Of a stretch of DNA of 64,000 bases, positions 32,343-42,109 are shown piece after piece. The notes beneath the pieces are model-generated. The model worked only from the letters and a program-made list of their open reading frames with translations, ran no database searches and was not told where the DNA came from. Made by a program: the position numbers and the translations under genes. Source of the DNA: Natrinema sp. SYSU A 869 (GTDB lineage: Archaea > Halobacteriota > Halobacteria > Halobacteriales > Natrialbaceae); contig NZ_CP082249.1 of NCBI RefSeq assembly GCF_019879105.1, forward strand, positions 558,001-622,000, written 5' to 3'. Numbering within the stretch: the first letter of the stretch is position 1; each line of letters begins with the position of its first letter.

Positions 32343-33269
32343 CTATCGACCGACGGCGAGTTCCGTCTCGAGGTCGCCACCGTTTAACAGTGATCGGACA
32401 AGTTCGACAGTCTGAGTCGTCTCCGCCGTGTTCTCAAGCAATACCGTCTCGCTAGGGAACAACTGTTCGCCCAGCAAGAGTCCGTGTTCGCGCGCGGTCG
32501 ATCCGGTGACGGTTAGGTAGACACCTATCCCTGCGTCGGCGATGGCCGCCTCCTCCTCGCGTCCCTCCTCGGGGTAGCGGAAGTCGATGCCCTCGAGCGC
32601 CCGCGTGCCGAGCACGGCCTGAACGAGCCGTTCGTATCTCGGCTCGATACAGAGCGGTCCCTCGTAGCGCTCGAGGAAGTCGCGATCGAGCGATCCCGAG
32701 GCCGGGACGATCTCAGGCGCGGCCAACAGCGTGTGGTAGACGGTATCGCCGAGCCCGGTGACGACCTGAACGTCGGTGTCGGAGGGGTTTATCCGGGCGT
32801 TGATGTCGGCGATCCGGCCGAGCGGCTCCGATCGGAGTTCGACGACCTCCTCAAGGACGAGATCGGCGCTGTCGAAGCCGAGCGCGAACTCGTGGGTGCG
32901 CAGGGAGCGGAACGGCTCCTCGCGACCCACGAGTTGGATCGTCGCGTCGTCAGGGGCTCCCTCGACGGCCGTCAGTGGGATCGTCACGCTGTCGAAGACG
33001 ATCCGCCGTGGTTTGCCGGCCCGATCATCCCGCAAGAGCGTGTACTCGGGTTCGGTCGGATCATCCACGGTGCTGTAGTCAGCGAGACGATGGTAGACGT
33101 CCTCCTCGTCAGGATTGATCGATCCCTTCGTGAGTGCCTTTTCGTGGCGAAGCGTCGACGTGATGTCGTCCGCGAGTTCGGGGACGTTGAGGCGGTCCGC
33201 GAGTCGGTCGAGTACCGACTCGAGGGGTCGCCCCTTACGTGGAACAGCGATCGGTATCGTCTCGCCCAT
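32343..33269 (-). CDS. Conserved haloarchaeal protein, HisG-like N-terminus
   Basis: Soluble 308-residue protein of unknown function. The start GETIPIAVPRKGRPLESVLD is reminiscent of ATP phosphoribosyltransferase (HisG; I-A-V-P-x-K-G-R), and the segment VVTGLGDTVYHTLLAAPEIV fits the D-I-G-I-V-G region of a type 2 periplasmic-binding fold, but typical HisG phosphate-binding residues are not obvious. A role in histidine synthesis is therefore not claimed. The ATG at 33269 is chosen over an upstream one at 33284. It lies 80 bp from the coiled-coil gene, in the same direction. Confidence 0.6.
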   Translation of the reverse strand: MGETIPIAVPRKGRPLESVLDRLADRLNVPELADDITSTLRHEKALTKGSINPDEEDVYHRLADYSTVDDPTEPEYTLLRDDRAGKPRRIVFDSVTIPLTAVEGAPDDATIQLVGREEPFRSLRTHEFALGFDSADLVLEEVVELRSEPLGRIADINARINPSDTDVQVVTGLGDTVYHTLLAAPEIVPASGSLDRDFLERYEGPLCIEPRYERLVQAVLGTRALEGIDFRYPEEGREEEAAIADAGIGVYLTVTGSTAREHGLLLGEQLFPSETVLLENTAETTQTVELVRSLLNGGDLETELAVGR

Positions 33270-33350: not shown

Positions 33351-35516
33351 TCAGTCCGAGAACATCGAGCCGAGTTGGTCGCGCCACTCCTGAATATCCG
33401 TTACGTCCGCCTTCACGTCCTCGAGTTCGTCCTCGACGGATTCGACATCGTCTTCGACGTCCTCGAGATTCTCCGCGACGTTCTCGACGTCCGATTCGAC
33501 GGATCCAACGTCTTCCTCCACGGACTCGATGTCGGCTTCGACCGCTTCGACATCCGATTTGACCGATTCGACGTCTTCCTCCACGAACTCGACGTCCGAT
33601 TCAACCGACTCAACGTCTGATTCGACGATTTCCAGATCTCCCTCGACCGTCTCGAGCCCGTCCGACACCGTTTCGACTTCGTCGTCGACTCCATCGATAT
33701 CTGCTGCGAGGTCGTCGACGGTCGCCTCGAGGTCGCCGACATCGTCGTCGACCGCGTTCAGATTTGCCTCGATATCGGCGTTCCAGTCGCTAAGATCGGC
33801 AATATCCTCGTCGAGTTCGCCGACCTGTGACTCCGTTCCCGCGAGTCGCTCGTCCATCGACGCGAAGTCGGACTCGAGTGCGTCGATATCGGTCTGGAGT
33901 TCCTCGATGAGCTGTGCACCAGTGCCGCTCTCCTTGAGGAACGTCTCGATCGCGTCGGTGTAGGCGGTGACCTCCTCGACGCGGCGCTGGAGGTGCTCGA
34001 CTTTCGCGATCGCGGGCCCCGATGGCTCGAGGTCGAGTGCCGTCTGGATGGTCTCGAGATCGTCGTCGTCGACCGTCTCGTCACTGATCTCGGTTGCGAG
34101 ACGAGTCGCGATCGACTCGTCGACATCGGGCTCGGGGGTCGGCGCTGTATCGGTCGGTTCCGCCTCGGCTGCCACGGCCGCGTCCTCGGCGTCGGCATCG
34201 TCGACCTCGGCTACCGCGTCTTCGGACTCCGGCTCGAGGTCGGGCTCAGTCGCCGTCTCGCTTGAGTCGTCCGCAACGCCATCGTCCGTCACGGGTTCGT
34301 CGTCCATGGCTTCCCGTTCGTCGTCTTCGACGGTCGGTTCGGAATCGGCAGCCGGTTTGCTGTCGCTCTCGTCCGTCTCGACAGCCGGCTCGTCGGTATC
34401 CATTTCGTCTGCATCGACAGCCGGCTCGTCAGCATCCGTTTCATCTGCGTCAGCGTCGGTCTCGGAACCGGCGTCGAGCTCCAGTTCGGGCGACTCGCTA
34501 TCGCCGTCCTCGGCCTCGTCGTCCGATTCGTCGACCCCGTCAATGGACTCGGCGGCATCAGGTTCGGTCTCCGCGGCCGTCTCGTCTTCGTCAGCGGTGT
34601 CCGCCGCCTCCTCGAGACCGAGATCGATTGCGGGTTCGGCCTCCTCGTCCGCCTCGGCGTCGTCTTCGAGCGTCTCGTCGGTGTCGTCAGCCTCGAGACC
34701 GCCCAGTCCGGCGTCGTCAGTCCCTGTCTCGTCCGTATCGGTACCGAGATCGAGTTCGACTGCGGACTCGTCGGGCTCGTCGGTTCCGTCGTCGTCCGCG
34801 TCGACATCGGTCGTGGGGTCGTCGTCGCTGTCCGGCTCCGGGATCTCCTCTTCCTCGAATCCGAGGTCGATGTCGGGCGTATCCGTTTCTTCCTCGGTGT
34901 CGTCCGCGTTGGTACCGGCCGGGTCAGGGCCGGGATCGACGTTGCCGAGATCGAGATCGAGTCCGCTCGACTCCTCGTCGGAATCCTCGCTAGAGTCGGT
35001 CGCCGCGTCGGACTCGTCGTCCTCGAGTCCCGGAACGGCGTCGGAGTCGCCGGCGATCATGTCTTTGACGGCCTGATTGCGGTCCTCGGAGACGATATTG
35101 TCTATGACCTCGTCGTCGACTTCGTCGGCCTCTACCGTCCCGTCGTTGCCGGTCTCGCGTTCAACGATCGTCGGTTCCGTGAGGAACTCCGCGGCTTGAC
35201 TCTCGTCGTCGATCTGAATGCCGTAGACCGTCTCGAGTCGTTCGCCGGGCTCGAGCGTGGCGATAAACTCGACGTGGTGGTCCTGATAGGCTGTCCAGTC
35301 GTCGCTGTGAAAGTCGGGATGAAACCCCACCTTGTCCATCGGGAACGACTCAGGAACGTCCTCTGAGAGCTGAAACGTTACCGGATCGTCGCGATTCGAC
35401 TCGATCTCGAATCGGATCGCGGGGACGGGAAACTCGTCCGCCGTGAACGTCTTTCGGACGGCTATCCCGTTAGTACTAACCTCGATCACGTCGTCCGTGT
35501 CGGCGGTGCTACTCAT
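33351..35516 (-). CDS. Large acidic coiled-coil protein
   Basis: Protein of 721 residues with three parts. Residues 1-125 form a globular, beta-rich domain (IEVSTNGIAVRKTFTADEFP and VEFIATLEPGERLETVYGI). Residues 125-480 are a low-complexity, Asp/Glu/Thr/Ser-rich and probably disordered segment. From about residue 495 to 710 the sequence is a long coiled coil; the last 100 residues are a chain of heptads of the form V-E-x-V-E-x-D. No membrane helix or signal is present. Architecture suggests a scaffolding or filament-associated role, but no function is known. A TATA box at 35541 supports the start. Confidence 0.75.
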   Translation of the reverse strand: MSSTADTDDVIEVSTNGIAVRKTFTADEFPVPAIRFEIESNRDDPVTFQLSEDVPESFPMDKVGFHPDFHSDDWTAYQDHHVEFIATLEPGERLETVYGIQIDDESQAAEFLTEPTIVERETGNDGTVEADEVDDEVIDNIVSEDRNQAVKDMIAGDSDAVPGLEDDESDAATDSSEDSDEESSGLDLDLGNVDPGPDPAGTNADDTEEETDTPDIDLGFEEEEIPEPDSDDDPTTDVDADDDGTDEPDESAVELDLGTDTDETGTDDAGLGGLEADDTDETLEDDAEADEEAEPAIDLGLEEAADTADEDETAAETEPDAAESIDGVDESDDEAEDGDSESPELELDAGSETDADADETDADEPAVDADEMDTDEPAVETDESDSKPAADSEPTVEDDEREAMDDEPVTDDGVADDSSETATEPDLEPESEDAVAEVDDADAEDAAVAAEAEPTDTAPTPEPDVDESIATRLATEISDETVDDDDLETIQTALDLEPSGPAIAKVEHLQRRVEEVTAYTDAIETFLKESGTGAQLIEELQTDIDALESDFASMDERLAGTESQVGELDEDIADLSDWNADIEANLNAVDDDVGDLEATVDDLAADIDGVDDEVETVSDGLETVEGDLEIVESDVESVESDVEFVEEDVESVKSDVEAVEADIESVEEDVGSVESDVENVAENLEDVEDDVESVEDELEDVKADVTDIQEWRDQLGSMFSD
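33400..33720 (-). repeat. 21-bp periodic repeats encoding heptads
   Basis: The 3' end of the coiled-coil gene consists of degenerate 21-bp units (7 codons, V-E-S-V-E-S-D type) about 14 times in succession. The repeats differ at silent and some amino acid positions, so they are old, but they still offer homology for slippage. Confidence 0.7.
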
Positions 35517-35540
35517 ATGGAACCAACGTTACCATACCAT

Positions 35541-35550
35541 TACTATAAAT
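35541..35550 (-). promoter_or_regulatory. TATA box for the coiled-coil gene
   Basis: On the minus strand ATTTATAGTA lies 24 nt before the ATG at 35516, the distance for a leaderless transcript. Confidence 0.55.
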
Positions 35551-35574
35551 TGTGCGGACGGACTTATATCTGAT

Positions 35575-36411
35575 CTACGACAGGTCGACCCGATCGCCAA
35601 TCTCGACGACCTCGAGTCGCTGCGGATACTCGAAGCTGTTCGTGTGGTGGTGCAGCGCCGTCGGATCGGCGGTGAGTCCCTTCCACATGTCCCAGTGGCT
35701 CGGCAGGAGCCGCTCGCACTCGAGGGCGTCGGCGCACTCAACGATCTGGTTCTCGTCGTTGTACCAGCGAGTTCGCGTTAGTTCGCGGGTCTGTTTGTCT
35801 GGAACCCGCCCGACGGTGCCGAACGCGAGCGCCGCAAGGTCGATTTCGTACTCCTCGCCGATCCGCTCGAACTCGTCGGTTGGCTTCGTGTCTCCGCCGT
35901 GGAAGAAAGTTCCCGCCTCGTGCTCGAGTACGTAACTCACGGGGTGGGTCGAATCGGGGTCGTTCGCCTGCTCGACGTGGACGGTGAACTCACCGATCTC
36001 GAGGGTCTCGCCTTCGGTGACTTCGGTTAGCTGGTCGTCGGTTACCTCCCACTCGTCGGTCCACGCCTCGTCTTCGCGGGCGACTGCGACGCTGTCGTCG
36101 GGCGCATAGAAGGACGCACCCGTGTTCGCGAGGATCGGTGCTTGGCTCGGCCCGTGAACGTGGTCGGTGTGTTCGTGGGTCGCCAGCAGCGCGTCAGCTT
36201 CGGCCACGTCGTCCGGATTGAACGGCACGGGAATCATGCGGACGGTCCGCGGCGGACTTCCCAGTCCGAGGTACGGGTCGATGTAGATCGTCGTTCCTTC
36301 GCGGCCCTTGACGATGAAGCCGTTACAGCCGAGATACCAGACCGCGACGCCGTCCGGATTCGCGTCTTCGATCTCGCGAACGAGCCAGTCACCCCAGTCG
36401 CTTGCGATCAT
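35575..36411 (-). CDS. MBL-fold metallo-hydrolase, UlaG-like
   Basis: Metallo-beta-lactamase-fold protein of 278 residues. The metal-binding motif H-x-H-x-D-H is in LLATHEHTDHVHGP; further ligands are the His in STHPVSYVL and the Asp in FFHGGDTKPTDE, with a late His in LLPSHWDMWKG. This pattern (GGDT and SHWD) fits UlaG-type lactonases or phosphodiesterases rather than beta-lactamases. The N-terminal GVAVWYLGCNGFIVKGREGTTIYIDPYL is typical of the group. Substrate unknown. Confidence 0.85.
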   Translation of the reverse strand: MIASDWGDWLVREIEDANPDGVAVWYLGCNGFIVKGREGTTIYIDPYLGLGSPPRTVRMIPVPFNPDDVAEADALLATHEHTDHVHGPSQAPILANTGASFYAPDDSVAVAREDEAWTDEWEVTDDQLTEVTEGETLEIGEFTVHVEQANDPDSTHPVSYVLEHEAGTFFHGGDTKPTDEFERIGEEYEIDLAALAFGTVGRVPDKQTRELTRTRWYNDENQIVECADALECERLLPSHWDMWKGLTADPTALHHHTNSFEYPQRLEVVEIGDRVDLS

Positions 36412-40059: not shown

Positions 40060-40980
40060 ATGGCAGCGGAACAGGCCGCAGACGGCTATCTCTTCGACCT
40101 CTATCGTCGATACATCGGTGAACCGGAGGATCGGACCGACGTCTACGTCGGATTCGGTCTGTTCCTCGGCGGAATTGGGCTGGCGATCATCGGCCTCGTG
40201 CTCTTCCTCTGGGGCAGTACGTTCGAGGCGCGATCCGGGATCTACTTCGCGTGGGTCGGCCCCGCGTACGCGCTCGCGATGATGGCACTCCCAGTGACGA
40301 TGCTCGGAATCGTCGTGCTCTTGCCCTCGGAGCGTCGGATGCTGTACACGTCGATCGCCGGCGTCGCCATCACCGCCGGCGCGGTCGCCGGCTTCCTCTT
40401 CGTCTATCCCAAGGACTGGAACGGCTACGGCGCAGATTACACCGTTCAGGTCGTCGCAGTCTATGCCCTCGGGCTCGCCGGCATCACCGCCTCGACGGGT
40501 GCGGCACTGATTGCCCACTATCTCGACATGGCACAGCAGGCCGAGGTCGTCGCAACCAAAGACGACGAGGATGACGACGACCCCGAACACACCGATGCTG
40601 AGATCCAACAGGACATCGACGATGCGATGGACGGCGTCGAACTCTCGTGGGGCGGCGTCGAGCAAACCGAGCACAAACGACTGAACTTCGCGAGCGACGA
40701 TCTCGAGGAGGTCAGCATCGACTCCGATGCCGGCACCACGACCACCCGCTCGTCGGGCGTCGAGACACAGGTCGCCGGCCTCAAGGGACTGAAAGGCGGC
40801 GAAACGAAAGAGACTACCTCGAGTTCGACAGTCGACGACCAGACGGCGAAACTGAAAGAACTGCGCGAGCAACAGCGTGCAGAGGAACTGGCGACGGCCG
40901 ACGACAGTGCCGTCGACACCGTGACGAACCCGTTTTCAGGTCTGCTCGAGCGGTTGCGGAAGCTCGTAAAACGGAATTAA
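40060..40980 (+). CDS. Haloarchaeal membrane protein, DUF7139-like
   Basis: Protein of 306 residues. A conserved N-terminal cytosolic stretch ([29 protein letters not shown]) precedes about four membrane helices (residues 30-165), then a long acidic cytoplasmic tail with a predicted helix [19 protein letters not shown] and a basic end ([11 protein letters not shown]). I recall the family as DUF7139, with no assigned function. It lies 98 bp upstream of the actin homologue in the same direction, so a membrane anchor or regulator for it is conceivable, but this is inference. Confidence 0.65.
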
Positions 40981-41078: not shown

Positions 41079-42109
41079 ATGGCCAAAGGCCTAGACGTCG
41101 GAACGATGAACATCCTGTCAGCACAGCAGGATGGGAACGATACGGTTTTCGTGCAACAGCGTAACTCATTCGTCGAGATCGAATACTCGGATATGGCCGA
41201 GCAGATGCTCTCGCGAAGCGAAGTGCTCCACATCCGCAAAGATGACAAGGTCTACGTCGTCGGTGACGATGCCCTGAACTTTGCGAACATTTCAACAAGG
41301 AGACTCGCCGTCCGATGAAACACGGGATCCTCTCAAACGACGAGCAGAGCGCGATCCCGATGATGAAGCTCATCATCGAGCAGGTCGTCGGCGAGCCCGC
41401 GTATCCCGACGAGAAACTCTACTTCTCGTCCCCTGCGGATCCGATTGACTCCGATCTCTCGACGCTGTACCACCAGAAGACAATCGAGTCGTTCCTCGAC
41501 GACATGGGGTACGACTCCGAACCAATCAACGAGGGGATGTCCGTCATCTACAGCGAACTCGCGGACAACAACTTCACCGGACTGGGGATCAGTTTCGGTG
41601 CCGGGATGACGAACGTCTGTCTCTCTTACTACGCGGTGCCCGTCATGAAGTTCTCCGTCGCCCGTGGTGGCGACTGGGTCGACGAGCAGGCTGCCCGTGC
41701 GACCGGCACGCCCGTCGACAAGGTCACCTCGATCAAGGAAGATGACTTCGAACTCGACTTTACGACCGATGTCGGCGGCGTTGAGGGCGCTCTCTCGATT
41801 TACTACGAGAACCTGCTCGACTACGTCATCGAGAACATCGTCAAAGAGGTCGACGAGGAAGACGTCGAGGAAGGGCTGGACGTCCCCGTCGTCGTCACCG
41901 GCGGCACCTCGAGCCCCAGTGGCTTCGAGGCGCTGTTCCGTGACCACCTGGAGGACGCGAACATTCCGTTCTCGATCAGCGGCGTAACCCACGCGAACGA
42001 ACCGCTGTACAGTGTCGCCCGTGGTGGCCTCGTCGCCGCGCGCTCCGACGAGGACGCCGAGCACCAATCGGACGACGAAGAAGCGGAAGCGGCAGCCGCG
42101 AACGAGTAA
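41079..42109 (+). pseudogene. Salactin-type actin homologue, frameshifted
   Basis: Actin/ParM-fold ATPase of haloarchaea, known in Halobacterium as salactin, which forms dynamically unstable filaments. The phosphate-1 motif is [13 protein letters not shown] at the N-terminus, phosphate-2 is [18 protein letters not shown], and the adenosine motif [17 protein letters not shown]. The first frame ends soon after NFANI; adding one T in the TTT run at 41290-41292 gives [19 protein letters not shown] and one continuous protein of 343 residues ending in an acidic tail. This repair is unambiguous because both sides are conserved. It has its own TATA box and follows the DUF7139-like membrane protein. 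Confidence 0.85.

Follow-up and report, generated by a model that had tools for sequence, protein, structure and literature searches.

A conserved haloarchaeal protein with a predicted immunoglobulin-like head, an acidic disordered linker and a valine-rich coiled coil is a candidate cytoplasmic scaffold

The window analyzed here, a stretch of 64,000 nucleotides from Natrinema sp. SYSU A 869, carries on its minus strand a gene for a highly acidic protein flanked by two conserved neighbors. A sequence-only reading had proposed a 721-residue protein at 33351–35516, and an uninterrupted frame of 721 codons with an ATG start lies exactly there. The features of the locus are as follows.

33351–35516, minus strand: whole gene, encoding a coiled-coil protein with a predicted Ig-like head
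35517–35562, minus strand: conserved promoter, with a TATA box at 35544–35549 and TAATGGTATGGTAACGTT at 35525–35542
35154–35492, minus strand: head (residues 9–121), a predicted immunoglobulin-like beta-sandwich with a near-invariant GFHPxY..W motif
34119–35147, minus strand: acidic linker predicted to be disordered (residues 124–466)
35022–35069, minus strand: short conserved linear motif VKDMI...VPGLE (residues 150–165)
34617–34955, minus strand: four [LI]DLG motifs (residues 188–191, 216–219, 255–258 and 297–300)
33873–34115, minus strand: conserved helical block (residues 468–548), confined to this family in the genomes tested
33384–33908, minus strand: unbroken heptad coiled coil (residues 537–711)
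33354–33398, minus strand: C-terminal end (residues 707–721) with a WRDQLGSMF motif
35575–36411, minus strand: neighboring MBL-fold hydrolase (UlaG/UPF0173-like; Lactamase_B_2, 71.9 bits), conserved upstream
32343–33266, minus strand: neighboring conserved 307-residue protein, unassigned to any named family (Pfam and NCBIfam searches gave no match)

The whole protein has 269 aspartate and glutamate residues against 20 lysines and arginines. Acidic residues make up 37% of its length, 44% of residues 131–470 (which contain only four K/R) and 51% of its most acidic 100 residues. Since none of the other 38 long, non-overlapping open reading frames of the window exceeds 21% over its whole length or 30% in its best 100 residues, this is far above ordinary haloarchaeal acidity. 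The protein contains no long hydrophobic stretch (best 19-residue mean hydropathy 0.35), which suggests a cytoplasmic location.

The small beta-rich head described in the sequence-only reading is recovered as a beta-sandwich in structure predictions. Modeled alone with AlphaFold2 (residues 9–121, 55 sequences), it has a mean pLDDT of 95.0 and a pTM of 0.87; in a full-length model built from 45 sequences, residues 10–120 form a domain of beta-strands, for the most part with pLDDT over 90 (87–95 per ten-residue block over residues 11–120). Across the 55 aligned members, neither Pfam nor NCBIfam has a family that matches the head convincingly, no adaptor family of these databases matched any of the 55 heads, and sequence searches against solved structures returned none for it. 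Its best solved matches in Foldseek were delta-COP mu-homology domains (E 1.5e-3, TM 0.63–0.66, 12–14% identity), and no solved match fell below E 0.001. In VIA-align comparisons, which speak for the families within the fold listings and leave families outside them possible, the head aligned with the delta-COP mu-homology domain at Z 9.4 (rmsd 2.9, 100 aligned residues) and with AP2 mu at Z 8.4 (rmsd 3.2, 98 aligned), compared with Z 8.8 for a cellulose-binding domain (rmsd 3.3, 94 aligned) and Z 8.7 for topoisomerase VI-B (rmsd 2.5, 85 aligned). Because these other Ig-like folds match nearly as well as the mu-homology domains, we assign the modeled head an Ig-like fold and treat adaptor-like binding as a lead.

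An Ig-like beta-sandwich would be common to the predicted head and to the mu-homology and appendage Ig domains of delta-COP and AP2 mu (Z 9.4/8.9 in VIA-align). The head, however, is one small domain compared with the larger mu domain of adaptor complexes, and no vesicle machinery is known here. Adaptin-like Ig domains have been described from ESCRT loci of haloarchaea (Halobacteriales), where the Halo_adaptin proteins are proposed cargo binders (PMC10936438). This makes an adaptor role for the head less odd, but the system is a different one: as described there, Halo_adaptin proteins combine several Ig domains with a beta-propeller and are encoded in Vps4 loci (PMC10936438), whereas the 721-residue protein has one Ig head and a coil, and no Vps4 was found among the window neighbors scanned. 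The head also occurs in frames of 150–161 codons (G043:C6:92114, G069:C1:1609649 and G079:C4:270155), which may encode a stand-alone protein.

Behind the head follow about 340 residues predicted to be disordered, in agreement with the extreme acidic core of some 350 residues first noted. Nearly all of residues 164–466 have pLDDT below 50 in the full-length AlphaFold2 model, which places two short helices at 135–154. The linker varies from 42 to 446 residues among 54 family members. Short motifs recur in the same 54 members: V[RK]xhh is present in 40 and a PGL-type motif in 37, and 47 carry WRxx[LIMV] close to the C-terminus. The window protein has four [LI]DLG motifs in its linker where shuffles of that linker give 0.14, and the looser pattern [LIVF][DE][LIV]G occurs 54 times over the 54 members against 5.0 expected from shuffled linkers, concentrated in part of the members.

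The C-terminal part is predicted to be helical over residues 469–720, weakly interrupted at 634–644. Of the 200-residue coil of regular heptads originally claimed, the heptads stand: residues 537–711 keep a single register over 175 residues, with 96% hydrophobic core positions, mostly valine. The extent does not, as the helical part already starts at 469 and covers about 250 residues, and residues 469–530 form a separate conserved block that is not built of regular heptads. Over residues 549–721 the 3.5-residue hydrophobic periodicity is 6.29, a value reached by none of 2,000 shuffles (maximum 1.77), and the two core positions are 92% and 96% V/I/L/M/F/W; the protein thus has the heptads with hydrophobic a and d positions of a coiled coil. 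In the middle block, the pair AY is invariant across an alignment of 49 sequences, and searches of the protein's own genome and of nine other gene-bearing genomes gave no match to the block outside the family. According to the GCN4 core rules, trimers are favored when both core positions hold beta-branched residues, and the valine-type core would accordingly favor a trimer. An antiparallel hairpin within one chain is possible as well, because the helix is broken at 634–644 in the single-chain model. Long, unbroken valine heptads could also build an intermediate-filament-like cytoskeletal polymer. We consider this improbable, as coil length ranges from tens to about 250 residues among relatives, and a brush would accommodate a charged tether of 300 residues on every subunit more readily than a packed filament would.

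In public annotation, the copy in Natrinema thermotolerans (CP031304; 10001–12190 of locus L223) is named “AAA family ATPase”, and the coil of the window protein matches SMC_prok_B at 54.9 bits, which would fit an SMC/Rad50-type ATPase. The cut-off of that model is 567 bits, however, and the window protein lacks a nucleotide site: the Walker A pattern [AG]x4GK[ST] is absent, as is the dipeptide GK altogether, and the predicted head is a beta-sandwich. We therefore reject an ATPase of this type, and with it the annotated name. The SMC-like Sph3 and coiled-coil-rich proteins of Haloferax, discussed in PMC10869688, share with the 721-residue protein a haloarchaeal coiled coil and a possibly structural role, whereas the latter has no SMC head or ATP site. 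Other profile matches were set aside. FlaC_arch scored 30.5 bits (cut-off 27.8) over just 39 coil residues; because COG6_N and DUF1664 pass their Pfam cut-offs on the coil as well, these matches reflect generic coil similarity. The locus is moreover not an archaellum operon, its neighbors being the MBL hydrolase, the 307-residue protein, an HTH protein, a response regulator and Dph2. DUF7310 reached 18.5 bits against a cut-off of 40, and the genome's match above that cut-off is a different gene.

Upstream of the gene, the 46 bases before the ATG (−46 to −1) have a mean identity of 89% in 28 relatives, compared with 48% for the 24 bases above them. TTTATA is found at −33 in 24 of these relatives and GTAACGTT in all 28. 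A TATA-like box, counted with a loose pattern and no shuffle control, lies 22–35 nucleotides before an in-frame ATG in 76 of 84 members. This arrangement fits a gene with its own transcript and a very short leader or none. Allowing up to three mismatches, the block that follows the TATA box has a single occurrence in the genome, and we consequently found no regulon sharing it. A sigma-70 promoter scan was discarded as meaningless for an archaeon.

The family is widespread within its order. Relatives of the full protein are present in 57 of 61 near genomes, some of the matches covering the coil alone. Of 146 genomes drawn from the order, 125 contain the head (111 among the 122 of good quality), mostly in one copy, as do all 20 drawn genomes of the window's own family; one genome missed by this search (G118) has a diverged copy. 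Among 392 genomes drawn from the phylum, 76 match, all of them within the order. Five listed misses also lie within it, the other 311 non-matching genomes (15 shown) appear to lie outside, and no head was found beyond the order in this draw. Of 53 pattern matches in viral contigs, none is a relative. As far as tested, the family appears to be limited to haloarchaea, and we found no paper on the protein in the open-access literature.

Selection acts unevenly along the protein. In 28 sequences of the genus, with pairs of saturated or very small distance excluded, the last 15 residues have the lowest median dN/dS (0.10), followed by the head (0.14) and then by the motif region behind the head and the middle helical block (0.20 each); the coil (0.41) and the acidic core (0.44) have the highest values. 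Gaps take up 48% of the alignment in the acidic core and 29% in the coil, and total length ranges from 313 to 828 residues in 54 members. Purifying selection constrains the two ends and the middle block; the linker and the coil are drifting. A fast-evolving, poorly conserved frame had been named as the observation that would speak against a structural role. The protein as a whole is not of this kind, as its head, block and C-terminal end show; the acidic core and the coil have higher dN/dS and undergo large length changes. With low dN/dS at the ends and block and higher values in core and coil, we regard this as a conserved family with a variable linker and rod.

The gene keeps constant company. 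In 40 regions of 12 kb from 39 genomes (three are second copies), 32 have the MBL hydrolase upstream in the same orientation and 27 have the 307-residue protein downstream. Among 80 named loci, which range from Natrinema to Haloferax and Halorussus, 77 have the hydrolase and 72 the 307-residue protein; the hydrolase gene is in opposite orientation in three. In four genomes without the gene these neighbors are 72–133 bases apart. Two further such genomes have a gap of 474–477 bases with a small frame that by eye resembles a GNAT acetyltransferase, and one has an 835-base gap without such a frame. As the gene is cleanly gone and its neighbors stand side by side, it is dispensable in some genomes; the kept neighborhood together with these clean gaps shows that it is old, vertically inherited and sometimes cleanly lost. 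The stable arrangement could mean that the protein is a scaffold holding the hydrolase and the 307-residue protein as an enzyme pair. This is unlikely, given that the two stay adjacent after the gene is lost and that the gene has its own promoter, which is what a common position with no common function would produce.

The 307-residue protein itself is highly conserved, with a mean column identity of 68% in 22 sequences. Only its first residues, beginning AVPRKGR, resemble HisG, and we rejected that identity for the protein, as it has no Pfam or NCBIfam match, the true HisG is encoded elsewhere and the profile match spans just 18 residues. A MinD3 lead, taken from HVO_1634, was likewise dropped; visual inspection of the Haloferax denitrificans locus, where a 677-residue copy of the coiled-coil protein lies in the same neighborhood, showed no MinD-like gene in the interval from dph2 to the MBL gene.

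The actin homolog of the window is not salactin, as the sequence-only reading had it. The gene, at 41079 to about 42109 on the plus strand, matches Volactin in Pfam at 350.5 bits and the salactin model at 14.5 bits (cut-off 400), and the 20 drawn genomes from the window's own family contain no salactin match. Among the 146 genomes drawn from the order, 70 have a volactin match above the cut-off and 39 a salactin match. The first 78 residues of the window gene are in a different frame from the rest, and the genome's second volactin-type gene is likewise split (674556–674693 and 674696–675505); the splits are either assembly errors or real damage.

A role for the 721-residue protein as partner or regulator of volactin would be in line with the 5.6 kb between the two genes in the window and with their lying within 20 kb of each other in 29 of the 62 genomes carrying the pair, in four families. 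The genes are, however, on opposite strands with several others between them, and 33 of the 62 genomes have them unlinked. The linkage exceeds chance placement, but a slow-moving block that includes dph2 would account for it equally, so it is suggestive at most. Co-occurrence, which the earlier reading had proposed for salactin, gives weak support at best, because the protein persists where volactin is missing: volactin is absent from 63 of 125 genomes with the gene and present in 8 of the 20 listed, out of 21, without a head match (Fisher p 0.48). Taken together, we give a volactin partnership little credence. A difference for salactin (38 of 125 against 1 of 20, p 0.015) was set aside, as the gene-less genomes include many incomplete ones and relatedness was uncontrolled.

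Two observations concern volactin itself. A DUF7139 membrane protein (40060–40980) is encoded directly upstream of it on the same strand and is a possible volactin partner; it is also present in 38 of the 42 named loci with volactin in view. Frames of 893–1,225 codons were also seen in which a volactin-type actin domain (399 bits in one, L264) is followed by several hundred coiled-coil residues and a C-terminal hydrophobic stretch that looks like a membrane anchor. They occur in the window's own genome from 674556 onwards, outside the window, and in three other genomes, and more of the kind were seen. Such a fusion of an actin fold with a coiled coil and a membrane anchor would be striking; a literature search on haloarchaeal actin-plus-coil proteins, judged by titles and abstract openings, gave nothing that fits.

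Our main reading, to which we assign a probability of roughly 45%, is that the protein is a cytoplasmic coiled-coil scaffold or tether with Ig-like binding heads, acidic tethers and linear motifs. The unusual architecture and the structural role proposed from the start are thereby retained as the likeliest account from sequence. The valine-rich coil, about 26 nm long if fully helical, would join at least two copies, probably in a parallel arrangement. From every copy would extend a long, negatively charged disordered tether with one Ig-like head that may bind a partner protein. VKDMI..VPGLE and [LI]DLG in the tether and WRDQL..F at the C-terminus could serve as extra docking points. Tether and rod would work by length and charge and be free to change, whereas head, middle block and tip would provide specific binding. 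The usual single copy per genome, a conserved promoter of its own, a confidently predicted and conserved head, fold matches that include adaptor domains binding short peptides, the lack of a hydrophobic segment and of a Walker A motif, conserved ends and middle block beside a linker and rod of free length, motifs above shuffled expectation and one heptad register speak for such a scaffold. Against it, the gene is dispensable in some genomes, the single-chain model leaves room for an antiparallel hairpin, the co-directional conserved neighbors look like enzymes rather than cytoskeleton, and Ig-like sandwiches are common, with adaptor matches no clearer than those to the cellulose-binding domain or topoisomerase VI-B.

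The same order of parts, a folded end, an acidic disordered middle and C-terminal helices, together with the multivalent motifs, would also suit a polar organizer or condensate former resembling bacterial PopZ or DivIVA, in which coils form a network, the acidic tether sets fluidity and clients are recruited at the poles; published work on haloarchaeal polarity exists (PMC6509185). An acidic disordered linker (as in PopZ) and helices that could oligomerize would be shared with these proteins, but PopZ and DivIVA are not known to carry an Ig head, and the PopZ tether is rich in proline. We judge this unlikely. A more far-reaching variant of the scaffold reading, a lineage-wide adaptor hub whose heads on rods catch short peptides in the manner of eukaryotic adaptor domains and bind the family's own [LI]DLG or WRDQL motifs, giving a self-assembling scaffold possibly tied to volactin, is unlikely.

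The public name “AAA family ATPase” misleads. The protein is found across the order, usually in a single copy, and has a domain for which Pfam and NCBIfam offer no model. The family is a strong example of how an acidic disordered linker can drift while the ends that it joins stay conserved. Little is known of the internal organization of haloarchaea, and the protein is a concrete candidate for clustering proteins in their molar-salt cytoplasm.
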